A stretch of DNA of 64,000 nucleotides, taken from NCBI GenBank assembly GCA_020252645.1, contig JADCCN010000014.1:1-64000 (forward strand), written 5' to 3'. The DNA comes from Methylobacterium sp. (lineage in GTDB: Bacteria; Pseudomonadota; Alphaproteobacteria; Rhizobiales; Beijerinckiaceae). Below the pieces are notes generated by a model that was not told the DNA's origin, made no database searches, and was given only the letters and a program-made list of their open reading frames with translations. Shown here piece after piece: positions 7,553 to 24,358 of the stretch (positions within the stretch are counted from its first letter, which is position 1; the number at the start of each line of letters is the position of its first letter). The position numbers and the translations under genes are program-made.

Positions 7553-8435
7553 GCCACTCGATCCACGACGCTCCCGCCGCTTCGCCCGGCCGCTATCGCT
7601 GGCTTACGACGACCATCCGCGCCTTCAATGCCAACAAGACCTCGTGGCTGGGCCTCGCGGTGTTCCTGATCGTCCTGCTGCTTGCGATCCTCGCGCCCTG
7701 GATATCCCCGCATGATCCGGTGGAGCAGGATGTCTTCTCGAAGCTGAAGGCGCCCTTCGACACTTACTATCTCGGCACGGATTATTTCGGCCGCGATATC
7801 CTCTCGCGCCTGCTCTACGGCGCGCGCATCTCGCTCGTGATCGGCATCGCCTCCACGGCGATCGCACTGGTCATCGGCTCGGCCATCGGCATCATCGCCG
7901 GCTGGTATGGCGGGCGGCTCGACATCATCGTGATGCAGATGATGGACATGCTGCTCGCGTTCCCCTCACTCATCCTCGGGCTCATCCTCGTGGCGATGCT
8001 CGGCCCCTCGGTGACGAATATCGTGATCGCGATCGCCATCACCTCCATCCCTTCCTTCGCCCGCATCGCCCGCGCGCCCACGATCGCCATCAAGGAGCGC
8101 GAATTCATCGATGCCGGGCGTTCGCTGGGCTTCTCGGATGCGCGACTGATGCTGCGCCACGTGCTGCCGAACATCTTCCCGGAAATCCTCGTCATGGGCT
8201 CGCTCTGGCTCGCCAGCGCCATCCGCACGGAAGCCTCGCTCGCTTTTGTCGGTCTCGGCGTGAAGCCGCCCATCCCCACCTGGGGCGGGATGATCCGCGA
8301 GGGCTTCGAGAACATTCTCGACAGCTACTGGCTGGTGCTCGCGCCGAGCATCGCGATCCTCCTCGTGGTCTTTGCGCTGAACATCCTCGGCGACGGCCTG
8401 CGCGACGCCATCGACCCCAAGCTGAAGGGCGAGCG

Positions 8436-8439
<4 letters not shown>
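7549..8439 (+). CDS. ABC transporter permease, DppC-like
   Basis: A 296-residue DppC/OppC-type permease. The ATG at 7549 overlaps the preceding stop (ATGA). The N-terminal cytoplasmic tail is followed by a membrane segment near residues 33-55, then the family signature [22 protein letters not shown], and the EAA loop with [26 protein letters not shown]. It ends IDPKLKGER, and its stop overlaps the ATPase start. It pairs with the DppB-like subunit to form the membrane channel. Confidence 0.93.
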
Positions 8440-10253
<1,814 letters not shown>

Positions 10254-10438
10254 GGAACAGGCGAATCGCGCGGAAACAGGAGGAAAAATGGCGCGCGTGA
10301 GAGGATGGAGCCGGCAAACGTGATGTGCTTGTTCTTCGCTGCTTTCGGGGGCAGGACCGATGAAAATCGGGTGCGAAGCTGGTTTTCGGGGGCCTGAGGC
10401 AGGATGGCGATAACCGGGTTTTTCCCGCTGATCCATAC

Positions 10439-11236
10439 TCAGCGTTTCACGCTGCGCGCGATCTGGTCTGCGATCAGCCGCGCAACGGAAGCGGCCTGCT
10501 CGACAGCGAGGAGATGTGCGGCGGGGTTCAGGACAGCAAGGCGCGCATGGCGAAGCTGGTCGCGCAGGAATTCAGACATCGAAACCGGCGTCGCAGGGTC
10601 CTGCTGTCCGGCGACAACAAGGGTCTGAACCGAGATATCCGGCAACAGCGCGCGAAGGTCCATCCGCGCAATGGCCTCGCAGCAGGCGGCATAGCCCTCT
10701 GCGTCATTCGTGACGAAATCTCGTGAAATCACGCCAATCGCCGACGGATTGGCCTCGAGATAACCCGGGGTGAACCAGCGCTCGAGCGTTGCCGCGAGAA
10801 TCGCTCCGGTCCCCTCGCGCCGGACAAGCGCGGCGCGATCGAGCCAGGCTTGCGCGGGCGGCATATGCGCCGTGGTCGCCATCAGCGTGAGCGAAGCCAG
10901 CCGGTGCGGATAGAGGGCAGCCAAAGCCTGCCCGGTCATGCCACCGAGCGACAACCCCGCAAAATGCACGCGCTCCAGCGCGAGATGATCGAGGATAGCG
11001 ATCGCATCCTCCGCAAGATCGGCGATTTCGAATGCCGCCCGGCCCTTCCTGCGGGAGGCGCCGTGGCCGCGTGTATCGTAGCGGATGCAGCGAAAATCCG
11101 GTGCGAGTTCCTCCACGACGGCATCCCACATGCGGTGGGTAGTGCCGAGCGAGTTGGAAAACAGGATGGCAGGCCGATCGGGCGGGCCTGCCTCCGTGAC
11201 GAAAAGGGTCGCCGAGGGCGTTTCAATGAAGGGCAT
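10439..11236 (-). CDS. pcaD: 3-oxoadipate enol-lactonase
   Basis: A 265-residue alpha/beta hydrolase that opens 3-oxoadipate enol-lactone to 3-oxoadipate, the step after muconolactone isomerase. The nucleophile elbow GLSLGGM puts the serine at residue 96, the acid lies in AGQQDPATP and the histidine in NPAAHLLAVEQ near the C-terminus. The segment FSNSLGTTHRMWDAVVEEL is typical of PcaD. It is the last gene of the livKHMGF run, only 3 bp after livF, so its expression is tied to the transporter rather than to the cat genes. This is the enzyme missing from the cat/ben operon, which supports one shared regulon. Confidence 0.9.
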   Translation of the reverse strand: MPFIETPSATLFVTEAGPPDRPAILFSNSLGTTHRMWDAVVEELAPDFRCIRYDTRGHGASRRKGRAAFEIADLAEDAIAILDHLALERVHFAGLSLGGMTGQALAALYPHRLASLTLMATTAHMPPAQAWLDRAALVRREGTGAILAATLERWFTPGYLEANPSAIGVISRDFVTNDAEGYAACCEAIARMDLRALLPDISVQTLVVAGQQDPATPVSMSEFLRDQLRHARLAVLNPAAHLLAVEQAASVARLIADQIARSVKR

Positions 11237-11239
11237 CGA

Positions 11240-11950
11240 TCAGACGCCCAGATGCTTTTCGAGGATCTCGGGCCGCGCCGCCAGGGCGGCCGGTGCATCA
11301 TCGAAAACGATTTCACCCCTGGCCATGATGACCATGCGGTCCGCCACCCTGGACAGCGAGCGGTGATCCTTGTCGACCACGATGGTCGCGATCCCCTCTT
11401 CGCGGATGATGCCAAGGGTTTTCCAGATTTCCTGCGCGATCAGCGGCGCGAGGCCTTCCGTGGCCTCATCGAGCAGGATGAGATCGGGATTGGTCATCAG
11501 CGCGCGGCCGATCGAAAGCATCTGCTGCTCGCCGCCGGAGAGCTGGTGACCACCATTCATGCGACGTTGATGGAGGCGCGGGAAGACCTCGAAAACACGA
11601 TCCAGCGTCCAGCGGCGCTGCCCGGCTACACCGGCGCGGGCGGACATCGTGAGATTTTCGACCACCGAGAGCGAGCCGAACACGCCGCGCCCTTCCGGCA
11701 CGTAAGCCACGCCGGCGCGGGCGATGTCCTCCGGCGCGCTGCGCAAGGTACTGGAACCGGCAAGGCGGATCTCGCCGCGCCTGTCCGCGATGAAACCCAT
11801 GACGGATTTCATGAGCGTGGTCTTGCCCATGCCGTTCCGGCCGATCAGCGCGATCTGCTCGCCGCGCCGCACTTCAAGATCGAGGCCGTAAAGCGCCTGG
11901 CTTGCCCCGTAGAAACTTTGAAGTCCGCTGATGGAGAGAAGCATGCTCAT
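11240..11950 (-). CDS. livF: branched-chain-type ABC transporter ATPase LivF
   Basis: A 236-residue ATPase of the LivF subfamily. Walker A is GRNGMGKTT near residue 38, the signature LSGGEQQML near residue 137, and Walker B LILLDEATEGL. Its start overlaps the livG stop (ATGA). LivF and LivG form the cytoplasmic motor of the importer. Because pcaD follows directly and a CatR-type site precedes livK, the likely cargo is an aromatic acid such as benzoate, or a pathway intermediate, rather than leucine. Confidence 0.93.
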   Translation of the reverse strand: MSMLLSISGLQSFYGASQALYGLDLEVRRGEQIALIGRNGMGKTTLMKSVMGFIADRRGEIRLAGSSTLRSAPEDIARAGVAYVPEGRGVFGSLSVVENLTMSARAGVAGQRRWTLDRVFEVFPRLHQRRMNGGHQLSGGEQQMLSIGRALMTNPDLILLDEATEGLAPLIAQEIWKTLGIIREEGIATIVVDKDHRSLSRVADRMVIMARGEIVFDDAPAALAARPEILEKHLGV

Positions 11951-12705
11951 GCCGCCACCTCATGATCCCCGAGATAGGCCATGCGAACGGCCGGGTGGTT
12001 GCGCACATGGTCAGGCGAGCCGGAAGCGATCACCTTGCCGTCGGCCATCACGGTCAGGCGGTCGGCGAGCGCGAAGACGGCATCCATGTCATGCTCCACC
12101 AGCAGCACGCCCCTGTCCTGTTTCAAAGAGCGGATGAGCGCGATCATCCGCAGGGCCTCCGCCTGGCCCATTCCGGCCAGCGGCTCATCGAGCAGGATGA
12201 CCTTGGGGTCGGTTGCAAGCACCATCGCGATCTCGAGCTGGCGCTGCTCGCCATGGCTCATGAAGCGGGCGATCGTGCCGGATCGTGCCTGAAGCCCCGT
12301 GGCGACAATTGCCGCGCGGGCCGCTTCGTTCACCGCGTCATCGTGCTGAACGTCTCCCAGCATCCGCAAGGCATGGCCGGATTTCGCCTGTGCGGCGAGA
12401 CGCACATTCTCGAACACGGTGGAGCCCATGAAGATGGTCGTCTTCTGGTAGGAGCGCCCGACCCCCGCCATGGCGCGCAGATTGGGCTTCAGCTCCGTGA
12501 TCTCGTGATCGCCGAGGCGGACCTCGCCCTCCGAGACCGGGATATCACCGGAAAGCAGGTTGATCAGCGTTGATTTGCCGGCACCGTTCGGGCCAATCAC
12601 CGCGTGCACCTCGTTCCGGTGGATCGCGAGCGAAACATCCGACACCGCCTTCAGCCCACCGAAGCGCCGGTGGAGCGAGCGCGCCTCCATCATGATCTCA
12701 GACAT
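11947..12705 (-). CDS. livG: branched-chain-type ABC transporter ATPase LivG
   Basis: A 252-residue LivG-type ATPase. The start at 12705 was preferred over longer options because it follows an AAGGGAG ribosome-binding site and overlaps the end of livM by 8 bp. Visible motifs are Walker A GPNGAGKST, the LivG insert with VGRSYQKTTIF, the signature SHGEQRQLEIA and Walker B VILLDEPLAGM. The C-terminal HPAVRMAYLGDHEVAA matches the LivG-specific tail. It acts with LivF on the LivHM channel. Confidence 0.93.
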   Translation of the reverse strand: MSEIMMEARSLHRRFGGLKAVSDVSLAIHRNEVHAVIGPNGAGKSTLINLLSGDIPVSEGEVRLGDHEITELKPNLRAMAGVGRSYQKTTIFMGSTVFENVRLAAQAKSGHALRMLGDVQHDDAVNEAARAAIVATGLQARSGTIARFMSHGEQRQLEIAMVLATDPKVILLDEPLAGMGQAEALRMIALIRSLKQDRGVLLVEHDMDAVFALADRLTVMADGKVIASGSPDHVRNHPAVRMAYLGDHEVAA

Positions 12706-13765
12706 GCTGGAAATCTCCCTTGGTTTCGACCTTCGGGGGCGCGGCCGGCGCAGCCGGACGCCTGGCGTTGGGATCGGCCGGGGGATCAGCCGAAACCGGC
12801 TCGTCATCCTCCCGGCGCGGCCGGAGGAGTTCCGCCAGCTGGCGGATGCCGCCCGGCAGCGCGAAGACGATTCCGATGATGATCAGCCCCTTGATCAGCT
12901 TCCAATGCTCGAAGCTGCTTTTCAGCACTTCCTCGAGGCCGATCAGCGCGAAGGCGCCGATCACCGGGCCGAGCACGGAACTCATGCCGCCGAGCACCAC
13001 CATCACCAGCACCGTCGCCGAGAGGTGCCATCCCAGCATCTGCGGTGCCACGAAGCCGAATTGCGCCGCGGAGAGATAGCCCGCGAGCCCGGCGATCATC
13101 GCGGAAACCACAAAGGCCACGAGGCGCAAACGGAAGACCGGAAAACCCAGCGACAGCGCCCGCTTCTCGTTGTCGCGCGCGGCCTGCAAGGCATGGCCGA
13201 AGGGCGATTTCACGATCGCCATGATCAGCAGGATGGCACCGACCAGCATCGCCAGCACCAGCCAGTAGAAGCTGCGGGTCTGTTCGAGATCAAGGAGCGG
13301 AAGGCCGGCGATGGCGATCTCGGGCTTGAAATAGATGTACATGCCATCCGAGCCGCCACCGATCCTGGTGTCATGGAAGAGATAGAAGAGCATCTCGCCG
13401 AAAGCGAGTGTGACCATGATGAAGTAGATGCCCCGCGTGCGCAGCGAGAGCGCTCCGATGATCGCCGCGACCACCGCAACCGCGAGAAGCGCCACCGGCA
13501 GCGAGAGCCAGAACGAGGCGCCTCCGCTCTCGGGTGTCATGAAGCCGAGCATGTAGCCCGCAAGCCCGAAAAAAGCGGCGTGGCACAGGCTGACAAGGCC
13601 GCCATAGCCGACGACGAGGTTGAGCGAGAGCGCCACCATGCCCATCAGCATCGCCTTGCTCGCGAACTGGACATAGTAGTTCGGCGCAAGGAGCGGCAGG
13701 GCCGCGGCGGCGATCAGGATGAGCGCGACAAGCCCGCGCAGCATGGTCGGATGAAGCCGGATCAT
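12698..13765 (-). CDS. livM: branched-chain-type ABC transporter permease LivM
   Basis: A 355-residue membrane permease with about eight to nine hydrophobic segments. Residues 30-75 contain the LivM signature KAMLMGMVALSLNLVVGYGG and SLCHAAFFGLAGYM, and the middle carries the ATPase-contact loop with KSPFGHALQAARDNEKRA. The C-terminal 40 residues are a charged, proline- and alanine-rich tail not needed for the fold. The gene starts 1 bp after livH and overlaps livG. Confidence 0.93.
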   Translation of the reverse strand: MIRLHPTMLRGLVALILIAAAALPLLAPNYYVQFASKAMLMGMVALSLNLVVGYGGLVSLCHAAFFGLAGYMLGFMTPESGGASFWLSLPVALLAVAVVAAIIGALSLRTRGIYFIMVTLAFGEMLFYLFHDTRIGGGSDGMYIYFKPEIAIAGLPLLDLEQTRSFYWLVLAMLVGAILLIMAIVKSPFGHALQAARDNEKRALSLGFPVFRLRLVAFVVSAMIAGLAGYLSAAQFGFVAPQMLGWHLSATVLVMVVLGGMSSVLGPVIGAFALIGLEEVLKSSFEHWKLIKGLIIIGIVFALPGGIRQLAELLRPRREDDEPVSADPPADPNARRPAAPAAPPKVETKGDFQHV

Positions 13766-13766
13766 C

Positions 13767-14636
13767 TCAGTTCCCCTTTCCCATCAGGCCATTGGGACGC
13801 CAGAGCAGGATGCCCGCCATCAGCACATAGATGAGGATCGACGAGAATTGCGGGAAGAAGACCTTCCCGAATGTATCGGTGAGGCCGATCATCAGCGCGC
13901 CGATTGCCGCCCCCGCGACCGAACCGATTCCGCCGAGCACAACCACCACGAAGGAGAGGATCAGCATGCCGTCGCCCATGCCGGGGAAGACCGTCGAAAT
14001 CGGCGAGACGAGAATGCCGCCCAAAGCCGCCAGCGCGATGCCGCCGGCGAAGACATAGCGGTTCACCTTATCGAAGGGGATGCCGAGCGCGCGCGTCATG
14101 TCGCGGTTCTCGGCCCCGGCGCGGATGATCATCCCGAGGCGCGTGCGCTGGATCATATAGAAGATCAGCCCGGCCAGAACGAGGCAAACCACGCAGAGCG
14201 CGATGCGATAGACCGGATAGGAGAGGATGTCCGTGAGCTGGATTGAACCCTTCAGCCAGGCGGGCGGCGCCACGGAATGCACATCCTTGCCGAACAGGAT
14301 CTGCCGCACTTCATCTATCACGAGGATCAGCCCGAAGCTCAGAAGCACCTGCGCGAGGTGATCGCGCCCGATCATCCGCTTGACGAAGATCTCCTCCAGC
14401 AGGAGCCCGAGCACGAAGGAAATCGCCACGCCGCCGATCAGTGCCAGCATGAAGCTGCCGGTATGGGCCGCGATCCACCAGGCGAGATAGGCGCCGAGCA
14501 TGTAGAAGGCCCCATGGGCAAGGTTGATGACGCCGAGAATGCCGAAAACGAGCGTCAGCCCGCTGGCGACCAGAAACAGCACAAGCCCGTATTGCAGGCC
14601 GTTCAGCAGTTGAACGGCAAAGGTCAGCGCATCCAT
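13767..14636 (-). CDS. livH: branched-chain-type ABC transporter permease LivH
   Basis: A 289-residue permease. The start at 14636 gives MDALTFAVQLLNGLQYGLVLFL, the usual LivH N-terminus; an upstream in-frame extension is rejected because it adds a non-conserved proline-rich stretch. The family segments FGILGVINLAHGAFYMLGAY and the loop RAGAENRDMTRALGI are clear. It forms the translocation pore with LivM and lies 55 bp downstream of livK. Confidence 0.93.
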   Translation of the reverse strand: MDALTFAVQLLNGLQYGLVLFLVASGLTLVFGILGVINLAHGAFYMLGAYLAWWIAAHTGSFMLALIGGVAISFVLGLLLEEIFVKRMIGRDHLAQVLLSFGLILVIDEVRQILFGKDVHSVAPPAWLKGSIQLTDILSYPVYRIALCVVCLVLAGLIFYMIQRTRLGMIIRAGAENRDMTRALGIPFDKVNRYVFAGGIALAALGGILVSPISTVFPGMGDGMLILSFVVVVLGGIGSVAGAAIGALMIGLTDTFGKVFFPQFSSILIYVLMAGILLWRPNGLMGKGN

Positions 14637-14691
14637 GGCGCGGCATCCTTGCATGCGAGGGAAGGGAACCGGGGGCGCGGGGAGAACGGCC

Positions 14692-15903
14692 TCAGCTGAC
14701 ACGGCAGCCCCGTGCCGGATCGTTCACCGCCTGCCCGGCGACGGAAACGAGTTCATTCCGGCCGTTGCGAACCTCACGCAGGTAGATGTTCTGAACCGGG
14801 TTGCCGGCCGCGTTGAAGCTCAACGGGCCACGCGGGCTGTCGATCTTCGCGGTGCGCATGGCGCGCACCACATCGTTGCGGGCCGCCCAATCGCCCTTCA
14901 CCGCCTTCAGGCCCTCGTTCAGCAGCGCGCCGGCATCATAGCCCTGCACGGCATAGATATCGCCATCCGCACCGGTCCTGGCCTTGAAATCCGCGAGGAA
15001 CTTGCGATTGGCCGCGTTGTCGAGGTCATCGGCATAATGGAGCGTGGTGCGCAGGCCATTGGCGCTCTCGCCCTGCGCAGGGATCGTGCCATCGGTAAGG
15101 AAGCCCGCGCCATAGAGCGGGATCGACTTGTTGAGCCCGGCCGCGGCGTAATCCTTCACGAATTTCACGGCGCCACCGCCGGCAAAGAAGGCGAAGACGG
15201 CATCGGGCTTCAGCGTGGCGAGGCGGGTGATCAGCGCCTGGAATTCCACTTCCGGGAACGGCAGCGCGAGATCCTCGACCACCGTGCCGCCCGCCTTCTT
15301 GAAGCCCTCGCCGAAAGCACCCACCATCTGCTGGCCCGCCGCATAGCGCCAGGTGATCGTCGCAACCTTGCGATGGCCCGCATCGAACATCACCTTGCCC
15401 ATCGGCTCGCAGACCTGCCAGTTCGAGAACGAGGTGCGGAAGATGTTCGGCGCGCACATCGGCCCGGTCGCCTCGTTCACGCCCGCATTGGGGATGACCA
15501 GCATCGTGTTGGTGTCACGCGCGACCTTGACCATGGCCATCGCGACGCCGGAATGCACTGTGCCCACCACCACATCGACCTTCTCGCGGCCGACAAGGCG
15601 GTTCATGTTGTCGGTCGCGGTCTCGGGTTTTGATTCATCGTCGACCTGCACGAATTCGATCCGCCGGCCGCCGAGCGAGCCGCCCTGCTGCTCGACATAA
15701 AGCCGGAAGCCGTCATCAATGAACTTGCCCAGCTTCGCGAAGGTGCCCGAATAGGGGAGCATGAAGCCCACCTTCAGCGGCGCTCCTTGCGCGATCGCCG
15801 GCGTCGGAAAGCGAAAGGCCGAGGCCGCCGTCAAGAGCCCCGCCGTGCCCAGAAGCAGCGAGCGGCGGTTCAGCGACGAGGCTGAGGAAATCATACGTGA
15901 CAT
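14692..15903 (-). CDS. ABC transporter substrate-binding protein, LivK-like, probable aromatic-acid binder
   Basis: A 403-residue periplasmic binding protein of the type I (Leu/Ile/Val) fold. The N-terminus has NRRSLLLGTAGLL and ends in AIAQ near residue 39, compatible with export by Tat or Sec. The mature part starts with LKVGFMLPYSGTFAKLG, similar to binding proteins that I associate with aromatic-compound uptake clusters. A GGAGGG ribosome-binding site precedes the ATG. It is the first gene of the livKHMGF-pcaD operon, and the 39-bp LysR-type element ends 124 bp upstream. Ligand assignment to benzoate or a related aromatic acid is inference from this context. Confidence 0.88.
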   Translation of the reverse strand: MSRMISSASSLNRRSLLLGTAGLLTAASAFRFPTPAIAQGAPLKVGFMLPYSGTFAKLGKFIDDGFRLYVEQQGGSLGGRRIEFVQVDDESKPETATDNMNRLVGREKVDVVVGTVHSGVAMAMVKVARDTNTMLVIPNAGVNEATGPMCAPNIFRTSFSNWQVCEPMGKVMFDAGHRKVATITWRYAAGQQMVGAFGEGFKKAGGTVVEDLALPFPEVEFQALITRLATLKPDAVFAFFAGGGAVKFVKDYAAAGLNKSIPLYGAGFLTDGTIPAQGESANGLRTTLHYADDLDNAANRKFLADFKARTGADGDIYAVQGYDAGALLNEGLKAVKGDWAARNDVVRAMRTAKIDSPRGPLSFNAAGNPVQNIYLREVRNGRNELVSVAGQAVNDPARGCRVS

Positions 15904-16026: not shown

Positions 16027-16065
16027 ACAGGATCGATTGAGTGTATCTTCATACCCTTGAGGTAT
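16027..16065 (-). promoter_or_regulatory. CatR/BenM-type operator upstream of the liv-pcaD operon
   Basis: The perfect palindrome ATAC-CCTTGAG-GTAT (16051-16065) matches the ATAC-N7-GTAT sites bound by BenM and CatM of Acinetobacter. A weaker half-matching site ATCG-N7-GTAT lies at 16032-16046. The whole 39-bp block is 35/39 identical to the block at 23381-23419 in front of catB, with the same spacing and orientation relative to the downstream minus-strand operon. It probably makes the transporter and pcaD part of the catechol regulon. Confidence 0.8.
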
Positions 16066-16106
16066 GGACTACGACGGATTCGCCGGAAAACGGGGCAAAC
16101 AACAGA

Positions 16107-16130
16107 AAAGCGCGCCAATGGGCGCGCTTT
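16107..16130 (-). terminator. terminator of the cat-ben-BKACE operon
   Basis: AAAGCGCGCC and GGCGCGCTTT form a perfect 10-bp stem with a 4-base loop. On the minus strand it is followed by TTCTGTTGTTT. It lies about 30 bp past the BKACE stop and before the LysR-type site of the liv operon, so it separates the two minus-strand operons. Confidence 0.75.
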
Positions 16131-16160
16131 CAAGTCATGCCTTGCTTGTGAGGTATGCAA

Positions 16161-16997
16161 TCAGGCCGCGCGAAGCCCCAGGATCGTGCGCGCCTCGGCA
16201 GGTGTCGCGGGTGCCCGGCCATGGCGACGAATCGCCTCCACAGCGCCCGAGACCAGCTCGGCATTGCCGTTGGCGAGGCGATCCTTGGTGATGCGAATGT
16301 TGTCCTCGAGGCCGGTGCGCACGGCATCCGCGCCGCGCGCTAGCGCCCATTCCATCACGCTCGCCTGATACCGGCCGATGCCGGCTGCGGTCCAGGTCGC
16401 ACCGGGAATGACGCGACGGGTTTCCGCCAGCAGGATATCGAGCAGGTGCTCGTCCGGCGGCATGGCGTTCTGCACGCCCATCACGAATTGCACATGCGGC
16501 CGCGTGGACATCAAACCGGCCTCGATGAGGCTCTTCGCGCCATGGATGTGCGACAGATCGAAGATCTCGATTTCCGGTGCGATGTCATGGGTCTTCATCC
16601 GGGTCGCAAGATCGGTCACCAGCGTGGTGTGGTTCTCGTAGACGATGGTGGGGAAATTGACCGAGCCCGTCGAAAGCGACGCCATGTCCGGCCGATGCAC
16701 GAGGCTCAGGCCGCGCTGGGCGGGGTCGCGCCCGCGCCCGCCGGTCGAGAACTGGATGATCATGCCCGGGCAATATTTGCGCACGCCCGCCTGCACCTCG
16801 GCGAAGCGCGCGGGATCGGATGACGGGCTCTCGTCATCGTCGCGCACATGGATATGCACCAGCGTCGCTCCGGCCTCGAAAGCCGCGTGGGTGGATTCGA
16901 TCTGCTCTGCCGGCAGAACCGGCAGGGTCGGATTATCCTTCTTGCGCGGCACGGAGCCCGTGATGGCGACCGCGACAACAACGGGTTTCGTATTCAT
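16161..16997 (-). CDS. beta-keto acid cleavage enzyme (BKACE, DUF849)
   Basis: A 278-residue protein of the BKACE/DUF849 family. Members condense a beta-keto acid with acetyl-CoA and release acetoacetate plus the CoA ester shortened by two carbons. The zinc-binding HIHVRD motif is visible at residues 48-53, and the family pattern of a TIM barrel with AITGSVPRKKDNPTLPVLPAEQI at the N-terminus is clear. It starts only 3 bp after the benD stop, in the same operon as catBCA and benABCD. Known of the family: substrates include several C5-C7 beta-keto acids. Inferred here: 3-oxoadipate plus acetyl-CoA to succinyl-CoA plus acetoacetate, which would replace PcaIJ and PcaF; neither is present in the window. 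Other beta-keto acids remain possible. Confidence 0.9.
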   Translation of the reverse strand: MNTKPVVVAVAITGSVPRKKDNPTLPVLPAEQIESTHAAFEAGATLVHIHVRDDDESPSSDPARFAEVQAGVRKYCPGMIIQFSTGGRGRDPAQRGLSLVHRPDMASLSTGSVNFPTIVYENHTTLVTDLATRMKTHDIAPEIEIFDLSHIHGAKSLIEAGLMSTRPHVQFVMGVQNAMPPDEHLLDILLAETRRVIPGATWTAAGIGRYQASVMEWALARGADAVRTGLEDNIRITKDRLANGNAELVSGAVEAIRRHGRAPATPAEARTILGLRAA

Positions 16998-17000
16998 GGC

Positions 17001-17792
17001 TTACCCCTGATCGCCGCCGCCAACCGGCAGGACCGTGCCGGTGATGTAGGATGCCGCATCGGAAGCCAGAAACAGGATCGCGGCAGACATCTCGCGGAGC
17101 AATCCGTATCGCTTCATGGGGCTGGAGCGGATGGTCTGGTCGACCACTTCCTGCATCCAGGCCTTGTCCTGCGGGGTCTGCTTGGCCGCGTTGCGCGGAA
17201 CCTTGCGCGGCGGCGCGGTGGTGCCGCCGGGGGCGACGGCGTTGATGCGGATGTTGCGTGCGCCGATCTCGAAGGCCATCGAGGCCGTCAGCGCGTTCAC
17301 CGCTCCCTTCGCGGCGGAATAGGGGATGCGGTTGATGCCTTTGGTTGCAATCGACGAGACATTCACGATCGCGCCGCGGTTCTGCGCATACATGTAGGGC
17401 AGAACGGCCCGGCAGCCCCAGAGCGTGGGATAGAGCGAGCGGTTGATCTCCGCCATGATCTCATTTTCACCGAACTCCTCGAAGGGCTTCATCCAGATGG
17501 CCCCGCCGACATTGGTGATGAGCACATCAATCGCGCCATAGGTGCGGAAGGCCTTCGCCATGGCCTGCTCGTTGCCCGACCAGGTTTCGAGATCGGCCTC
17601 GAGCGACTGGGCCTGCCCCTGACCGTGCACCTTGTTGATCTCTGCCGCCACCTCATGGACGAGCGGCGAACGATCGACCAGCGTGAGGCGCGCGCCATCG
17701 GCTGCGGCTTCGAGCGCCACCTGCTTGCCGATGCCCTGCGCCGCACCGGTGACGAGCATGCTCTTCGTATGGAACCGCGCGGGCGTCGTCAT
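17001..17792 (-). CDS. benD: 1,6-dihydroxycyclohexa-2,4-diene-1-carboxylate dehydrogenase
   Basis: A 263-residue SDR that oxidises benzoate cis-diol to catechol with loss of CO2. The cofactor motif GAAQGIGKQVA, the TNVGGAIWMKPFEEF segment typical of BenD/XylL, and the catalytic YSAAK are visible. The ATG at 17792 is preferred because it has a GGAG ribosome-binding site; a TTG 12 bp upstream is the alternative. It follows benC by 16 bp and precedes BKACE by 3 bp. Confidence 0.93.
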   Translation of the reverse strand: MTTPARFHTKSMLVTGAAQGIGKQVALEAAADGARLTLVDRSPLVHEVAAEINKVHGQGQAQSLEADLETWSGNEQAMAKAFRTYGAIDVLITNVGGAIWMKPFEEFGENEIMAEINRSLYPTLWGCRAVLPYMYAQNRGAIVNVSSIATKGINRIPYSAAKGAVNALTASMAFEIGARNIRINAVAPGGTTAPPRKVPRNAAKQTPQDKAWMQEVVDQTIRSSPMKRYGLLREMSAAILFLASDAASYITGTVLPVGGGDQG

Positions 17793-17808
17793 CACTTGCT
17801 CCAATTCC

Positions 17809-18819
17809 TTACCTGGCTTCGGCGGGGTTGAACTTCTCGAAATGGAAGCTGGCGGGTTTCACGCCCTTTTCCGCGAGGTAAGCGCGGACGGCGTCCACCA
17901 TGGGCGGCGGACCGCAGAGATAGAGATCGACATGGCCGGAATGGAGCGCGGCATCCGGCAGGTGGTGGGTCACATAGCCCTTGCGCTCATGCGCCGAAGC
18001 CGGGTCTGCCACGACGGTCACATAGGTGAAGCCCGGAATGGCCGCCGCGAAAGTCGCGAGCTTCGCCGTTTCGACGAGATCGGCATCGTTTGTCACGCCA
18101 TAGATCATGTGGATCGGCTGCCCGGTTTCCTTTTGCCGGAGCGATTCCAGCATGGCGAGGAAGGGCGCGAGGCCTGTTCCGCCGGCAAGGAACAGCAGCG
18201 GGCGCGTCACGTCGCGCAGGTAGAAGCTGCCGATCGGCCCTGTCAGCGTGAGCGCGTCACCCGGCTTGGCGTTGCCGGCGAGGTAGCCCGACATCAACCC
18301 GTTGGGGATGTTGCGAACCAGAAACTCCACGATTCCATCCCTCGGCATGGAGGAGAAGGAATAGGAGCGGGTCTGGCTCGTGCCGGGCACCGAGACGTTC
18401 ACATATTGCCCCGGCAGGTAGGAGAGCTGGCTCGCATCCTTCACCTTGACCGCAAAGCCGATGCTCGTCGGCGAAAGCTGGCGAACCTCCACCATCTCGC
18501 CAGCCATGGCGGCGGGCTTCACCTTGCAGGCCGTGGAGGCGGCGGGGATGCGGATCACGCAATCCGATTTCGCCTTCATCTGGCAGGTGAGCACGAAGCC
18601 CTCACGCGCCTCGTCCTCGGTCATCGCGTCCTCGATATAGGAGCCAAGGGAATAATCCCCGCTTTCGCATTGGCATTTGCAGGTGCCGCAGGCGCCATCC
18701 CGGCAATCCATGGGGATGTTCACGCCGACGCGATAGGCCGCGTCGGCCACGAGTTCATCGGCGCGCGCCTCGATGAAGCGCGTCACGCCGTCCTCGAAGT
18801 TCAAGGCGATGCGATGCAT
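17809..18819 (-). CDS. benC: benzoate 1,2-dioxygenase electron-transfer component
   Basis: A 336-residue reductase that passes electrons from NADH to the BenAB oxygenase. The plant-type [2Fe-2S] domain has cysteines 39, 44, 47 and 79 (CRDGACGTCKC and LTCQ). An FAD domain follows with RSYSFSSMP near residue 185, and an NAD-binding domain with LFLAGGTGLAPFLAML, ending in YLCGPPPMVDAV. Length and domain order match BenC/XylZ. It starts 36 bp downstream of benB. Confidence 0.95.
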   Translation of the reverse strand: MHRIALNFEDGVTRFIEARADELVADAAYRVGVNIPMDCRDGACGTCKCQCESGDYSLGSYIEDAMTEDEAREGFVLTCQMKAKSDCVIRIPAASTACKVKPAAMAGEMVEVRQLSPTSIGFAVKVKDASQLSYLPGQYVNVSVPGTSQTRSYSFSSMPRDGIVEFLVRNIPNGLMSGYLAGNAKPGDALTLTGPIGSFYLRDVTRPLLFLAGGTGLAPFLAMLESLRQKETGQPIHMIYGVTNDADLVETAKLATFAAAIPGFTYVTVVADPASAHERKGYVTHHLPDAALHSGHVDLYLCGPPPMVDAVRAYLAEKGVKPASFHFEKFNPAEAR

Positions 18820-18855
18820 GGCGGCGCCCTCCCGGCACCCCGCTCCTGCGGCGGG

Positions 18856-19380
18856 TCAGATGTGGTAGATATCGACGACGTGGTGGATGTAATCGTTCTT
18901 GAGAACGACCTTCTTGGCCGTGATCAGCGGCCGCTCGCCCGAGACATCGAGCGTGTAGAACGACGTGCCGAAATAGCTGTCGGTGGTCTTGTAGCGGAAG
19001 CTGAGGTTGAACCAGTTGAAGCGCAGCTTCGCCACGCCGCCCCCCTGTTCCAGGATCTCGACATTCGAGATATTGTGCGAGGTGCGCGGCTCGGGCAGCG
19101 AAGTGGCCGAGGAGCGCTCGGTTCTGATGCGGAAAACACGATCCTCGAGGCCCTGCTTGGAGCCGTAATAGATCAGCGAGATCTCGCTCTGCGGGTCTTC
19201 GGTCAGCAGGTCGTCATCGTCCCAGGCCGGCATGTGGAAGGTTGCGTTCGGCGCATAATGCGCGAGCCAGCCATCCCAGTCGCGGTCGTCGAGGCAGCGC
19301 GCCTCGGCATAAAGGAAGGCCTGGATTTCTTCGATTCCGAGTTCGCGCGCCTGGGGCACGGCCTTGAGAACGGCAGACAT
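18856..19380 (-). CDS. benB: benzoate 1,2-dioxygenase small (beta) subunit
   Basis: A 174-residue beta subunit of a ring-hydroxylating dioxygenase with the SnoaL-like fold. The sequence AFLYAEARCLDDRDWDGWLAHYAPNATF is the usual start of the conserved region, and HNISNVEIL and FNWFNLSFRYKTTDSYFGT are typical of BenB. An AAGGAGAG ribosome-binding site precedes the ATG. It has a structural role beside BenA. A hairpin lies in the 72-bp gap after benA. Confidence 0.94.
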   Translation of the reverse strand: MSAVLKAVPQARELGIEEIQAFLYAEARCLDDRDWDGWLAHYAPNATFHMPAWDDDDLLTEDPQSEISLIYYGSKQGLEDRVFRIRTERSSATSLPEPRTSHNISNVEILEQGGGVAKLRFNWFNLSFRYKTTDSYFGTSFYTLDVSGERPLITAKKVVLKNDYIHHVVDIYHI

Positions 19381-19420
19381 GACGTCTCTCCTTGAGCGTT
19401 TCCTGAAAGGTGGGATGGGG

Positions 19421-19444
19421 CGGGCCGCTTCCTGTGGCGGCCCG
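19421..19444 (-). other. intercistronic RNA hairpin between benA and benB
   Basis: CGGGCCGC and GCGGCCCG form an 8-bp stem with an 8-base loop. There is no T tract, so full termination is unlikely. It may stabilise the benA message end or tune the ratio of benA to benB. A similar hairpin lies between catA and benA. Confidence 0.5.
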
Positions 19445-19452
19445 CTTGCCCG

Positions 19453-20826
19453 TCATTCGGCGGCGATGGCCTTGGCGGCATCGGCGGCGCGCTGGTCCTT
19501 GCGAAGGCCATCGATCAGCGCCTGCTTCCAGTAGGCGTGCTGCACCACGAACAGACCTTCATCCTCGGTCTTCCTGCCCGAGAGCAGCGGCTTCATGCCG
19601 ATCGATTCCGCATCGGCATCCGCACCCTTGATCCAGTGCGTGGCCCCGCGGGAAAGGTCGTTCCACTGGGTATTGCGCGCACCATAGCCGATCTGGCAGG
19701 AGCGGAATTCCTCGAGATCGTCCGGTGTCGCCATGCCCGAGGCGTTGAAGAAATCCTCATATTGGCGGATGCGGCGGGCACGGGCTTCCGCGCTCTCGCC
19801 CTTGGGCGCGATGCAATAGATCGTCACTTCCGTCTTATCGACCGAAATGGGGCGATACATGCGGATCTGCGAGGAGAACTGATCCATCAGGAAGACGTTC
19901 GGGTAGAGGCAGAGGTTGCGGCTCTTCTCGATCATCCAATCCGCGCGGGCCTTGCCGAAGGCTTCCGTCAGTTCCTCGCGGCGCTCCCAGTTCGGGCGGT
20001 CCTGCGGGTTCGACCAGTTGGTCCAGAGCAGCAGGTGGCCATATTCGTAGGAATAGAAGCCCCCGCCCTGCTTGGCCCATCCGCCGGCATCCATGGCGCG
20101 GATATCGTCCTTGCCGGCCGCCGCCTTGCGGGCTTGCGTTGTGGCCGCATAATTCCAGTGCACGGAAGAAACATGGTAGCCATCGGCGCCATTCTCGGCC
20201 TGGAGCTTCCAGTTGCCGTCATAGATATACTGCGAATTGCCACGCAGCACCTCGAGCCCTTCCGGCGACTGATCGACGATCAGATCGATGATCTTGCGCG
20301 CTTCACCGAGATATTCCTCGAGCGAAACCACATCATCGCTGAGCGATCCGAACAGGAAGCCGCGATAGCTCTCGAAGCGCGCGAGCTTCTGGAGATCATG
20401 GCTGCCATTCTTGTTGAAGCTCTCGGGATAGCCAGCGCCATCCGGGTCCTTCGCCTTGAGGAGCTTGCCGGTGTTGTTGAAGGTCCAGCCATGGAAGGGG
20501 CAGGTATAGGTTGATTTGTTGCCCCGCTTGTGCCGGCAGATCATCGCGCCGCGATGCGAGCAGGCATTGAGGAAGGCGTGGAGCTTTCCGTTGCGATCCC
20601 GCGAGATTACGATCGGCTGGCGGCCGATATACCCCGTGATGTAATCGTTGTTGTTGGGGATCTGGCTCTCATGGGCGAGATACACCCAGTTTCCTTCCCA
20701 GATATATTTCATTTCGAGTTCGAAATACTCTGGATCGGTGAAGATTTCCCGCTTGCAGCGGAAATTGCCGGTGGCTTCGTTATGTTCCACCGAAGCCTCG
20801 AGCCGTGCGATCATCGCCTCGGACAT
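19453..20826 (-). CDS. benA: benzoate 1,2-dioxygenase large (alpha) subunit
   Basis: A 457-residue catalytic subunit that dihydroxylates benzoate. The Rieske centre is complete: C89, H91, C109 and H112 in CSHRGAM and CPFHGW. The mononuclear iron site shows D215, H218 and H223 in [13 protein letters not shown]. Length fits BenA/XylX. A GGGAG ribosome-binding site precedes the ATG. It sits in the middle of the catBCA-benABCD-BKACE operon, 66 bp after catA. Confidence 0.96.
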
Positions 20827-20857
20827 GGTCGTTCTCCCTTGGGAATGGCTTGGAACG

Positions 20858-20878
20858 GGAGCCGCCCTGGGCGGCTCC
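20858..20878 (-). other. intercistronic RNA hairpin between catA and benA
   Basis: GGAGCCGCC and GGCGGCTCC form a perfect 9-bp stem with a 3-base loop in the gap between the catA stop and the benA start. No T tract follows on the minus strand. It is a candidate mRNA stability or processing element. Confidence 0.5.
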
Positions 20879-20892
20879 TGTTTCGCTGGATT

Positions 20893-21822
20893 TCAGGCCG
20901 CGATCACATGCTCGCGGTCGACGATCGTCGTCGGCGCGCCGGCCTTCTCGCGCACCAGCGCGATGTCGAACCTGGCGCGGGCGAAGGGGCGGTTCACGCC
21001 CGCCTTGCGGATCTCGTCGGCATCGGTCACGCGTTCGAGCGTCACGATCAGTTCGTCACGGGTGCCGAAGGCGAAATCGGTGTGGAGATACTTGTCGCCT
21101 GTGAAATTGAACTGCGTGGTGAGCTTGCGGAAGCCCGGCGCGGTCACGAAGAAATGCACATGGGCGGGGCGCTCGGCATGGCGGCCCAACGCGTTCATCA
21201 GCGTGCGGGTGCAGCTTTCCGGCGGGCAGCCATAGCCGTTCGGCACGATGGTGCGGGCGAGATAGCGGCCCTTCGCATCGGTCTCGATGCGGCGGCGCAG
21301 GTTGTAGGGGGCCTGCTCGCCATCGATGAAGGAATAGCCCCCCTTCGAATTGGCGTGCCAGAGATCGACAATCGCGCCCGGCACGACATGGCCGTTCTCG
21401 TCACGCACCTGGCCGGAGATGAACATCACCTCGCCGGGATCGGTGCCGTCATCCATGCGGGCCTCGCCCTTGGTAAGCGGCGCGCCGGCGACATAGAGCG
21501 GGCCTTCGATGGTGCGCATCGTGCCGCCCTTGATGCCCGCGAGGCGTTCGGCCTCATCGAGCCTGAGGTCGAGGAAATGCTCCAGCGCCACGCCGGGAAC
21601 CATGAGGCCCGGCTCGTTGTTCTTCGCGGTCTGGCTCAGGAAGCCGACAGCGGCCCAGAACTCATCCATGGAGACATCGCATTCGTCGATCACCTGCATC
21701 AGGCGATAGAGAAGGCGGTTGGTCACTTCCTTCACGCGGGGCTGGCCGCCCGGCATGTTGATGCCTGAGGCTTCGGCCGCGAGCTTCTTCATGTCGGCTT
21801 TGGAGATCAGGTTGGCAGGCAT
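20893..21822 (-). CDS. catA: catechol 1,2-dioxygenase
   Basis: A 309-residue intradiol dioxygenase that cleaves catechol to cis,cis-muconate. The Fe(III) ligands are Y110 (GPLYVAGAP), Y197 (PNGYGCP), H221 and H223 (RPAHVHFF). The N-terminal helical dimerisation domain (residues 1-100) is present. GGAGGAAA precedes the ATG as ribosome-binding site. It lies 35 bp after catC. Confidence 0.96.
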   Translation of the reverse strand: MPANLISKADMKKLAAEASGINMPGGQPRVKEVTNRLLYRLMQVIDECDVSMDEFWAAVGFLSQTAKNNEPGLMVPGVALEHFLDLRLDEAERLAGIKGGTMRTIEGPLYVAGAPLTKGEARMDDGTDPGEVMFISGQVRDENGHVVPGAIVDLWHANSKGGYSFIDGEQAPYNLRRRIETDAKGRYLARTIVPNGYGCPPESCTRTLMNALGRHAERPAHVHFFVTAPGFRKLTTQFNFTGDKYLHTDFAFGTRDELIVTLERVTDADEIRKAGVNRPFARARFDIALVREKAGAPTTIVDREHVIAA

Positions 21823-21857
21823 GGGCGTTTCCTCCGGTTTTCTTGATTGAGGCGGGA

Positions 21858-22148
21858 TCAGCGATCGTCGTCGCGGATCGAAGAGGGATGGCGGCAGAGC
21901 GGGGTGACGCTGATCTCCATGAAGGGGAAAAGCGGCAGGGTGCTCAGCAGATCATGGAGTTCCTGCGGGCTGCCGACATCGAAGATGCTCGTGTTGGCGT
22001 AGCGGCCGGCATGGCGCCAGAGGTGGCGCCAGAGGCCCTGCTCTTGCAGCGCCTGCGCGCGTTCACGCTCGGCCTTCTTCAGCGTTTCAGCGCGCTCGGC
22101 GGGCAGATCATGGGGGATGCGCACATCCATCTGAACCTGGAACAGCAT
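21858..22148 (-). CDS. catC: muconolactone delta-isomerase
   Basis: A 96-residue ferredoxin-fold enzyme that converts muconolactone to 3-oxoadipate enol-lactone. The start at ATG 22148 gives MLFQVQMDVRIPHDLP, the canonical CatC N-terminus; a GTG two codons upstream overlaps the catB stop and is less likely. The motifs RYANTSIFDVGSPQELHDLL and LPLFPFMEISVTPL are diagnostic. It is the second gene of the operon. Confidence 0.94.
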   Translation of the reverse strand: MLFQVQMDVRIPHDLPAERAETLKKAERERAQALQEQGLWRHLWRHAGRYANTSIFDVGSPQELHDLLSTLPLFPFMEISVTPLCRHPSSIRDDDR

Positions 22149-22150
22149 GG

Positions 22151-23326
22151 TCACGATCCTGTCTTGAGTTGCGTCAGCACATGCAGGCTGCGCTCGGCGC
22201 GGTCGCGCCGGAAGCGGCCGACCTGGCCCTCGTCCAGCCGGATGCCGAGGCCGGGTTCGGTCGGCACCTTGAGACTGAATTCGGAGTAATCGAGCGGCTC
22301 GGCGAGGATTTCCTCAGTCAGCAGCAGCGGACCGAACAGCTCCGTGCCCCATTCGAGCCTGGCAAAGGTCGAGAAGAGATGGGCGGAAGCCGCCGTGCCG
22401 ATGGCCCCCTCGAGCATCGTGCCGCCATAGAGGCCGATGCCCGCCGCTTCCGCGATGGCGCCAACCCTGGCGCCCGCGAAAAGCCCGCCGGATTGCGCGA
22501 TCTTGAGTGCGAAGACATCCGCCGCTTCGCTCTGCGCGAGCTGGAAGGCCGTTTCCGGCCCGTTCAGCGCCTCATCCGCCATGAGGGCGATGGAGGTTTC
22601 GCGCGCGAGCCGCGCCATGCCGCGGATGTTCTTCAATGCGATGGGCTGCTCGATGAGATCGACACCGGCATCGCGCAGCAGGGGCAGGCAGGTCGAGGCG
22701 GTCGCCTCGCTCCAGGCCTGGTTGATGTCAACCCGCACCGAGGCGCGATCGCCCAGAGCGGCCTTGATGGCCGCGACATGCGCGATGTTCTTCCTGGCGT
22801 CCCCGCGCCCGATCTTGAGCTTGAAGATATTGTGGCGGCGCCTGGCGAGCATGTCTTCGGCTTCCGCGATATCCCGCGCGGTATCCCCGCTCGCGAGCGT
22901 CCAGGCTACCGGCAGGCGATCATGGTGGCGCCCACCGAGAAGCTCAGAGGCCGGAAGCCCCACCCGCTTGCCCAGCGCATCGACCAGCGCCGTTTCCACG
23001 GCGCATTTGGCGAAATGGTTGCCCTGCACGGCCTTGGCAATACTCGCCATGGTAACGCCGATGCGGTTGGCATCCGCCTGAAGCAGGATGGGCGCGATGT
23101 AGGTATCGATCGCGAGCTTCATGCCCTCGGGGCTCTCCGGCCCATAGGCGAGGCCGCCGATCGTCGTGCCTTCGCCGATTCCGGTGATGCCATCGGCCAT
23201 GCGCAGCCGCACGATCATCAGGGTCTGGCCCTTCATGGTCGTCATCGCCAGCTGATGCGGCCGGATGGTCGGCAGATCCACCAGAAAGGTCTCGACCTCG
23301 ATGATCCGTGCCGGGCTCAGTGCCAT
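22151..23326 (-). CDS. catB: muconate cycloisomerase
   Basis: A 391-residue enolase-superfamily enzyme that lactonises cis,cis-muconate. The catalytic KLK motif has K169 and K171, the metal ligands are D200 (RVDINQ), E226 (LIEQP) and D251 (ADEAL), and the opposite lysine is near K275. The ATG at 23326 is the first gene start downstream of the LysR-type element, whose core is about 80 bp away. The unusual order places catB, C and A ahead of the ben genes in one transcript. Confidence 0.94.
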   Translation of the reverse strand: MALSPARIIEVETFLVDLPTIRPHQLAMTTMKGQTLMIVRLRMADGITGIGEGTTIGGLAYGPESPEGMKLAIDTYIAPILLQADANRIGVTMASIAKAVQGNHFAKCAVETALVDALGKRVGLPASELLGGRHHDRLPVAWTLASGDTARDIAEAEDMLARRRHNIFKLKIGRGDARKNIAHVAAIKAALGDRASVRVDINQAWSEATASTCLPLLRDAGVDLIEQPIALKNIRGMARLARETSIALMADEALNGPETAFQLAQSEAADVFALKIAQSGGLFAGARVGAIAEAAGIGLYGGTMLEGAIGTAASAHLFSTFARLEWGTELFGPLLLTEEILAEPLDYSEFSLKVPTEPGLGIRLDEGQVGRFRRDRAERSLHVLTQLKTGS

Positions 23327-23380: not shown

Positions 23381-23419
23381 ACAGGATCGATTGCGTCTAT
23401 TTTCATACCCCTGAGGTAT
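23381..23419. promoter_or_regulatory. CatR/BenM-type operator between catB and the LysR gene
   Basis: ATAC-CCCTGAG-GTAT at 23405-23419 is a perfect ATAC-N7-GTAT palindrome. It is embedded in a 39-bp block 35/39 identical to that at 16027-16065. It lies between divergent catB and the regulator gene, whose ATG is 21 bp away, so it can serve both activation of catB and autoregulation. Confidence 0.82.
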
Positions 23420-23440: not shown

Positions 23441-24358
23441 ATGGAGCTGCGGCATCTGCGCTATTTCACGACCGTCGCGGCGGAGGGTTCCTTCAGTCGC
23501 GCGGCCGAAAAACTGCACATCGCGCAGCCCCCGCTCTCGCGGCAGATCCAGCAGCTGGAGGAAGAACTGGGCGTGCGGCTTCTCGATCGTGGAAGGCCGC
23601 TCACCCTCACCGAGCCCGGTCGATACCTTTTCGAGCAGTCCCGGCAGATCCTCCAGCGGGTGGCGGATGTCCGTGCGATGACCCGGCGCATCGCCAAGGG
23701 CATGGTGCTGCAATTCAATATCGGCTTCGTGGCCTCCACCCTTTACGATGATTTGCCGGAGCTGATCCGCCGTTTTCGCATCACGGTGCCGGGCGTGGAG
23801 GTTCACCTCCTCGAAATGACGACGCTGGAGCAGGTGGCGGCGCTGAAGGACGGGCGCATCGATATCGGTTTTGGTCGCTTGCGGTTCGATGATCCGCTGA
23901 TCATCCGCAAGGTCATCCGCGAGGAACGGCTCTGCATCGCGGCACCCAAGGGCCACCCGCTGGTGGCGCGCGGCACGGCCTTGCGCCTCAAGGATACGGC
24001 GGGCGAACCGCTGATCCTCTATCCGCGCGCGCCGCGGCCGGGTTATGCCGATCAGGTTCTGAGCTTCCATCATGATGCGGGCATCGATCCGGTCATCGCC
24101 ACGGAGGCAAGGGAGTTGCAGACGGCTTTGGGCCTGGTCGCGTCCGGCGGGGGCATCACCATCGTGCCGGCTTCCGTTCGCCGCCTTGGGCGGGATGACG
24201 TGGCCTATATCGATCTCGACGAGCCGAAGATGACCTCCCCGATCATCATGAGCTATCGCAAGAACGACAGTTCCCGCCTTCTCGCCCAACTGGTGGAACT
24301 GGTGCGGCTCTTCGACCGGTGGGACCCGGCGCTGGAGACATCGCGCCCCGCTCCGTGA
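23441..24358 (+). CDS. catR: LysR-family regulator of the catechol/benzoate operons
   Basis: A 305-residue LTTR. The start at 23441 gives MELRHLRYFTTVAAEGSFSRAAEKL, with the winged HTH in residues 1-60 (QPPLSRQIQQLEEELGVRLLDR), which matches the CatR/BenM/CatM branch. The effector-binding domain follows. It is divergent from catB, and two sites with the BenM/CatM consensus are in the window. Muconate, and perhaps benzoate, would be the inducer by analogy with the family. CatR and BenM cannot be separated from sequence alone. Confidence 0.9.
   Translation: MELRHLRYFTTVAAEGSFSRAAEKLHIAQPPLSRQIQQLEEELGVRLLDRGRPLTLTEPGRYLFEQSRQILQRVADVRAMTRRIAKGMVLQFNIGFVASTLYDDLPELIRRFRITVPGVEVHLLEMTTLEQVAALKDGRIDIGFGRLRFDDPLIIRKVIREERLCIAAPKGHPLVARGTALRLKDTAGEPLILYPRAPRPGYADQVLSFHHDAGIDPVIATEARELQTALGLVASGGGITIVPASVRRLGRDDVAYIDLDEPKMTSPIIMSYRKNDSSRLLAQLVELVRLFDRWDPALETSRPAP

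Follow-up and report, generated by a model that had tools for sequence, protein, structure and literature searches.

Introduction

The beta-ketoadipate pathway, familiar from textbooks, is a route for carbon from aromatic compounds and lignin. A stretch of 64,000 nucleotides from Methylobacterium sp. (assembly GCA_020252645.1, contig JADCCN010000014.1, positions 1 to 64,000; hereafter the window) carries the benzoate and catechol part of this route in one operon, and the last gene of that operon encodes an enzyme of the BKACE family (PF05853, DUF849). This arrangement raises the question of how 3-oxoadipate is broken down, a task that PcaIJ and PcaF perform in the classical pathway. The reading preferred here, with a probability of roughly 0.83, is that the BKACE replaces PcaIJ and PcaF in the benzoate route, that a CoA-transferase of the SCOT type and a thiolase handle the resulting acetoacetate, and that the genes are under common LysR control.

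According to this scheme, the enzymes of the operon would convert benzoate to 3-oxoadipate enol-lactone, from which PcaD, encoded in an adjoining unit, would form 3-oxoadipate. The BKACE, a zinc TIM-barrel enzyme, would then transfer the acetyl end of 3-oxoadipate to acetyl-CoA, giving succinyl-CoA and acetoacetate in a single step that stands in for PcaIJ and PcaF. SCOT (ScoAB), encoded elsewhere in the genome, would turn these two products into succinate and acetoacetyl-CoA, and a thiolase would split the latter into two molecules of acetyl-CoA. Judged from the known reactions, the net balance would equal that of the classical pathway.

A BKACE gene at the end of the benzoate operon

The operon is located on the minus strand and runs from 23326 to 16161 in the order catB-catC-catA-benA-benB-benC-benD-BKACE, with successive intergenic gaps of -4, 35, 66, 72, 36, 4 and 3 bp. 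Its first genes are catB for muconate cycloisomerase (22151..23326; TIGR02534, 536 bits, cut-off 335), catC for muconolactone isomerase (21858..22154; TIGR03221, 141.7 bits, cut-off 130.6) and catA for catechol 1,2-dioxygenase (20893..21822; TIGR02439, 377 bits, slightly under the cut-off of 392). The large and small subunits of benzoate 1,2-dioxygenase are encoded by benA (19453..20826; TIGR03229, 835 bits, cut-off 781) and benB (18856..19380; TIGR03232, 270 bits, cut-off 226), the electron transfer component by benC (17809..18819; NF040810, 540 bits, cut-off 430), and benzoate diol dehydrogenase by benD (17001..17804, start codon provisional; NF040811, 421 bits, cut-off 380). The NCBIfam cut-offs are exceeded for the BenA, BenB, BenC, BenD, CatC and CatB-family models, and CatA alone falls short. 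The BKACE gene (16161..16997) is followed by a terminator-like hairpin on the same strand (16106..16131), with an 11-pair stem and a T-rich tail; one such hairpin was found where 0.2 was expected.

The BKACE protein matches PF05853 over its full length (residues 5-275 of 278; 296.7 bits, cut-off 24.8). On the NCBIfam equivalog model NF053568, "3-oxoadipate:acetyl-CoA acetyltransferase", it scores 448.2 bits, about 98 above the cut-off of 350, and the next-best NCBIfam model, Kce, reaches 239 bits and fails its cut-off of 382. Residues H48 and H50, which form an HxH motif, and E231 are each retained in 97% or more of 91 aligned BKACE rows; in line with the zinc site of the Kce structure, these three residues are the presumed zinc ligands. 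A solved structural relative is 3no5 (309 bits). On these grounds, the enzyme of the window is predicted to convert 3-oxoadipate and acetyl-CoA into succinyl-CoA and acetoacetate. For a relative, one zinc per active site is described in PMC11961710.

An earlier reading of this DNA by a model, made from the sequence alone and referred to here as the original prediction, had proposed this gene order, the position of the BKACE as last gene 3 bp past benD, the zinc HxH motif and the absence of pcaIJ and pcaF from the window. All four points are borne out: every gene lies where it was placed, and neither the CoA-transferase family PF01144 nor the thiolase family PF00108 has a match within the 64 kb. 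Its central proposal, that the BKACE replaces PcaIJ and PcaF in the breakdown of 3-oxoadipate, is supported by the equivalog model, the operon position and the LysR boxes described below, as well as by the genome-wide and order-wide surveys. The novelty that it implied was overrated. Since the NF053568 cut-off is passed, the substrate that it had inferred is already a curated function in NCBIfam, and the replacement has been proposed in print before.

Probable regulatory boxes shared with the pcaD unit

Divergent from catB, on the plus strand, lies a gene for a CatM/BenM-like LysR regulator (23441..24358), which scores 256 bits on the BenM and 253 bits on the CatM model, both under the strict cut-offs; the AlsR model is slightly ahead (263 bits) and likewise under its own cut-off. 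The motif ATAC-N7-GTAT, the CatM/BenM consensus (PMC6628147), occurs as an exact match in the lysR-catB intergenic region (23405..23419) and again upstream of a second minus-strand unit that carries transporter genes and pcaD (16051..16065). These are the only two exact copies in the whole 64 kb, where 0.02 were expected, and two copies were reached in 0 of 100 shuffles. When the two 60-base box regions are aligned without gaps, 38 bases are identical.

The boxes recur in relatives. Loci around related BKACE genes were taken from named genomes as the best 80 of 314 relatives, several of them ending at contig ends. They comprise 1.5 Mb with 22 exact boxes, 19 of which lie inside the 11 loci where the BKACE stands with cat or ben genes. 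Four of these loci (L025, L026, L030 and L040) have one box before catB and another before pcaD. The catB-BKACE operon and the transporter-pcaD unit are thus probably both targets of the CatM/BenM-like regulator, so that pcaD, whose product would make 3-oxoadipate, and the BKACE gene, whose product is predicted to consume it, would come under a common regulator.

The pcaD gene itself (10439..11236, minus strand) is a probable 3-oxoadipate enol-lactonase. Its presence in the window had been claimed before; a gene is indeed there, but the call is a probable one, as the score on TIGR02427 is 255.6 bits, 0.25 bits short of the cut-off of 255.85. With a shorter reading of the open reading frame, the fused PcaDC model gives the higher score (276 bits), yet one below its cut-off of 390.

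Transferases and thiolase in the rest of the genome

The genome (3.05 Mb, 25 contigs, 99.74% complete) has three PF01144 matches, namely an alpha/beta pair on contig C21 (86342-87677) and a FadX-like protein on contig C12. The alpha subunit of the pair shares 76% identity with a ScoA-type protein from Microvirga, compared with 47-50% for PcaI-type references, and is placed in the ScoA group of the tree with support of 95/97. The best solved-structure match of this transferase is SCOT (3cdk, 290 bits), as opposed to 169 bits for AtoD. PcaIJ was thus not found by the genome-wide PF01144 search, and the possibility of pcaIJ elsewhere in the genome was set aside, since the sole alpha/beta pair is of the ScoA class by both the tree and the SCOT structures. 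That pcaIJ was overlooked in a draft assembly is extremely improbable: the sequence is split into 25 contigs, but its completeness is high, and genome G001, home of the 96%-identical relative L020, likewise has just two matches, one of the ScoA class and one distant.

The genome check gives a mixed answer for pcaF. One protein, encoded at C21:47456, exceeds the pcaF cut-off with 660 bits, but its gene follows paaZ (969 bits) at a distance of two genes, which makes PaaJ its most likely identity. For this reason it was not accepted as proof of the classical route.

These two finds could nevertheless be combined into a classical route from scattered genes, in which ScoAB activates 3-oxoadipate, the PaaJ-type thiolase cleaves the product, and the BKACE acts on another keto acid or in an auxiliary role. 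A precedent exists in genome G089 (locus L194, contig C10, 5505-11940), where a pair of the ScoAB class opens a gene run that also holds pcaH, pcaG, pcaB, a pcaD-like gene and pcaF; there, a SCOT-type transferase has apparently been recruited as PcaIJ, a third way to end the pathway. Such a route is unlikely in the present genome, as neither the ScoAB genes nor the thiolase gene are close to the ben-cat genes, the thiolase has its paaZ context, the operon is closed by a BKACE that matches the 3-oxoadipate equivalog, and BKACE and PcaI never coincide among 150 genomes of the order.

With replacement of PcaIJ and PcaF by the BKACE as the preferred reading, the fate of acetoacetate has to be considered. 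The original prediction had called the pathway possibly CoA-transferase-free, and this part does not hold. Acetoacetate needs reactivation, and the SCOT pair is the sole activator found, as acetoacetyl-CoA synthetase gave no match in this genome at E 1e-100. If SCOT performs the reactivation, a CoA-transferase and a thiolase would still be required, and the net stoichiometry would be unchanged.

The synthetase is present in the other 30 of the 31 genomes tested. These comprise 13 of 13 BKACE genomes without a ScoA-class best match (11 lacking any transferase match at E 1e-50 and two having a distant one; the other 22 BKACE genomes lay outside this test) and 17 of 17 comparison genomes. Being equally present in the comparison genomes, the synthetase was rejected as a marker of BKACE genomes, and its distribution is a matter of consistency, not proof.

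Two further loci of this genome deserve mention. A second BKACE gene (C25:27305-28195) was rejected as a 3-oxoadipate enzyme, because its product scores 164 bits on NF053568 against 556 bits on the 3,5-dioxohexanoate model. A pcaC-pcaH-pcaG cluster (L150, 4248-6268) lies on contig C18, and this 13.6 kb contig shows no match to BKACE, CoA-transferase or pcaB. Were this cluster in use, both branches would have to rely on the one BKACE of the 3-oxoadipate type.

BKACE and PcaI across the order

A sample of 150 genomes of the order was searched, with BKACE counted above its cut-off and PcaI at E values up to 1e-84. BKACE is present in 36 genomes, PcaI in 20, and both in none (hypergeometric p 0.0026); of the 65 genomes that contain pcaH or catC, 26 have BKACE, 13 have PcaI and none has both (p 0.0005), both p values ignoring relatedness. 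BKACE occurs in 26 of these 65 ring-cleaving genomes versus 10 of the 85 others (odds ratio 5.0, p 8.7e-5). The lowest accepted PcaI scores 322.3 bits and the best match below it, of the ScoA class, 284.6 bits, so the separation of BKACE and PcaI does not depend on the cut-off. At E 1e-50, the 36 BKACE genomes have a top transferase score of 278.8 bits; a match is found in 25 of them, with the best match in the ScoA class in 23, and none in 11. The local PcaI profile has seven rows, and the profile used in the searches (A1) has six.

Read by eye, pcaH is found at most 2 kb from the BKACE gene in 10 of the 36 genomes, and catC at most 6 kb from it in two. A relative from the same genus (G093) has pcaCHGB and pcaIJF, with no match to BKACE or catC.

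Several observations weigh against replacement of PcaIJ and PcaF by the BKACE. PMC4922564, which also quotes the substrate groups of Bastard et al. 2014, describes the family as promiscuous in vitro, and PMC11961710 reports other substrates as confirmed for a more distant Paracoccus BKACE with an aromatic gene context; gene context alone may therefore mislead. Neither pcaH nor catC is present in 10 of the 36 BKACE genomes, and 53 of the 80 loci have no aromatic neighbours by the script's rule (at least 40% identity, or above 55% for benD, same strand, at most 9 kb from the BKACE, by blastp with single reference proteins). Such single references can miss distant genes, as in L068, labelled none despite a pcaC-like match.

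The transferase data contain contrary cases as well. Two of the 36 BKACE genomes have a transferase that the script labelled PcaI-like (G039, 219 bits) or unsure (G030, 214 bits), both low-scoring and distant compared with held-out PcaI proteins at 329 bits or more. Neither BKACE nor PcaI was detected at the cut-offs used in 26 of the 65 ring-cleaving genomes, and the gene run of G089 indicates that the ScoA class is compatible with activity on 3-oxoadipate. Outside the order, the BKACE gene of Acetobacter garciniae (L064, G012) shares a gene run with pcaI, pcaJ and a pcaF-type thiolase (approximately 7288-10816), and Roseicella (G011) has BKACE and a PcaI-type transferase in one genome, which means that the exclusivity of BKACE and PcaI is not universal. 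These last two genomes would also suit an operation of both routes in parallel, with the BKACE adding flux or sparing succinyl-CoA. For the Methylobacterium strain, this is highly unlikely, since PcaIJ was not found in its genome and none of the 150 genomes sampled from the order has both BKACE and PcaI.

For 17 of the 26 ring-cleaving genomes with neither gene, even a search at E 1e-50 gave no transferase. Either the 26 would end the pathway in some other way, or the genes were missed by the search.

With the BKACE still preferred as the replacement for PcaIJ and PcaF, a broader view of the order has odds slightly better than even. BKACE would be a standing alternative to PcaIJF and mutually exclusive with it, a single gene that could move among catechol, protocatechuate and hydroxyquinol operons and serve several branches at once. 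Acetoacetate would pass to SCOT or to acetoacetyl-CoA synthetase, so that the CoA-transferase would be a housekeeping enzyme, or would be dropped where only the synthetase exists.

If BKACE commonly substitutes for PcaIJF, annotation based on pcaIJF wrongly marks such genomes as incomplete. The product name "3-keto-5-aminohexanoate cleavage protein", which 23 of 30 listed relatives from plasmids bear, conceals the predicted role. Acetoacetate as an intermediate would offer a branch point toward other products, which is of use in engineering, and the operon suits a clean genetic test because no PcaIJ was found in its background.

Relation to known systems

The replacement is well supported, with its function curated and the idea published before. 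For Ralstonia eutropha H16, PMC6449761 (2019) assigns a COG3246 protein of the CatM/BenM regulon the predicted function of a beta-ketoadipate cleavage enzyme. This case shares with the window the gene family, the pathway branch, the type of regulator and the predicted role. It differs in that R. eutropha is a betaproteobacterium in which catA-benABCD is under CatM/BenM control, as is catBCD with COG3246 in H16, whereas the window has one alphaproteobacterial operon.

In Methylobacterium, PMC8963497 (2022) notes DUF849 in the place of pcaIJ/pcaF in pca operons, and PMC12379598 (2025) describes the transfer of pcaHGBL and kce into M. extorquens, which led to growth on protocatechuate; the sections of the latter that were covered contain no kce deletion or assay. 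These operons likewise have a BKACE in place of pcaIJ/pcaF, and the pca-linked Methylobacterium loci L027, L029, L031, L037, L039 and L053 show 79-83% identity. They represent the protocatechuate branch, whereas the window gene belongs to a benzoate-catechol operon and the pcaCHG genes of its genome are on a separate contig.

With the curated NF053568 acetyltransferase, the window protein shares the full-length match above the cut-off, the metal-motif residues and the predicted reaction; it differs in that its gene ends a catBCA-benABCD operon and that its activity here is a prediction. In comparison with the classical pathway, the upper steps and presumably the overall end products are alike, whereas PcaIJ was not found and cleavage would take one step with acetyl-CoA, giving acetoacetate. 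A literature search, mostly without subscription papers, found no report of a Hyphomicrobiales catBCA-benABCD-BKACE operon or of the non-overlap of BKACE and PcaI. As far as this search shows, what is new is how the operon is arranged, that its genome lacks PcaIJ, that BKACE and PcaI do not coincide in the sampled genomes of the order, and that the two units have boxes in common.

Transporter genes and related loci

The transporter-pcaD unit begins 257 bp past the BKACE gene on the minus strand, with pcaD as its last gene. It encodes a substrate-binding protein of an ABC transporter (Peripla_BP_6; 14692..15903; PF13458, 259 bits), two permeases (13767..14702 and 12698..13765) and two ATPases (11947..12807, start provisional and overlapping the second permease; 11240..11950), the permeases and ATPases being named from the sequence of their open reading frames. 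The transporter and pcaD follow the BKACE in unchanged order in L020, L021, L022 and L024. In L152, the binding protein and permeases, including the first permease in its place, follow up to the end of the fetched stretch.

The original prediction had proposed a survey of other genomes for BKACE beside cat or ben genes. Run here, it shows that the linkage recurs in 11 of the 80 loci (L020-L026, L030, L040, L072 and L083), among them Bradyrhizobium erythrophlei GAS478 (L023) and a Bosea sp. (L025); L078 was not counted, because its label rested on a lone catC-like match. Of the remaining loci, nine have pcaH, pcaG or pcaB, five have pcaD alone, and one has pcaI-pcaJ-pcaF (L064). Among six plasmid loci, hand-picked from 651 records with a match, three show linkage to pca genes, a fourth has maleylacetate reductase and an intradiol dioxygenase as neighbours, and the other two (L106 and L107) have no cat or pca genes nearby. 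When the genome under study is taken together with those of the 11 linked loci, 11 of these 12 genomes (G000-G010) have a best PcaI-query match that belongs to the ScoA group, the exception being the PcaI-type match of Roseicella; this classing covers the fetched matches, a few further ones (for example, two in G004) being left out.

The BKACE tree includes 55 of the 91 rows, as 36 loci without aromatic neighbours were thinned out first. One group (support 100/99) unites 12 cat-linked rows, among them those of the window and G137. G137, from another family, has the entire operon at 75-87% identity. Roseicella L083 has a different gene order and lies outside the group, which suggests multiple origins; the cat/ben linkage of BKACE probably arose more than once, with losses in between as the alternative.

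Some loci show further arrangements. In L193 (G046:C498, 1539-3843), scoA, scoB and BKACE form a single gene run, in which the transferase would use both BKACE products. L025, L026, L030 and L040 have the order catB-catC-catA-benD-BKACE with no benABC match between catA and benD, so that the diol dehydrogenase gene is retained without an adjoining dioxygenase. A lone BKACE is found near genes for quinate/shikimate catabolism, which would feed protocatechuate, in L041 (an aroQ-like open reading frame, read from the sequence) and L106 (aroQ and shikimate dehydrogenase).

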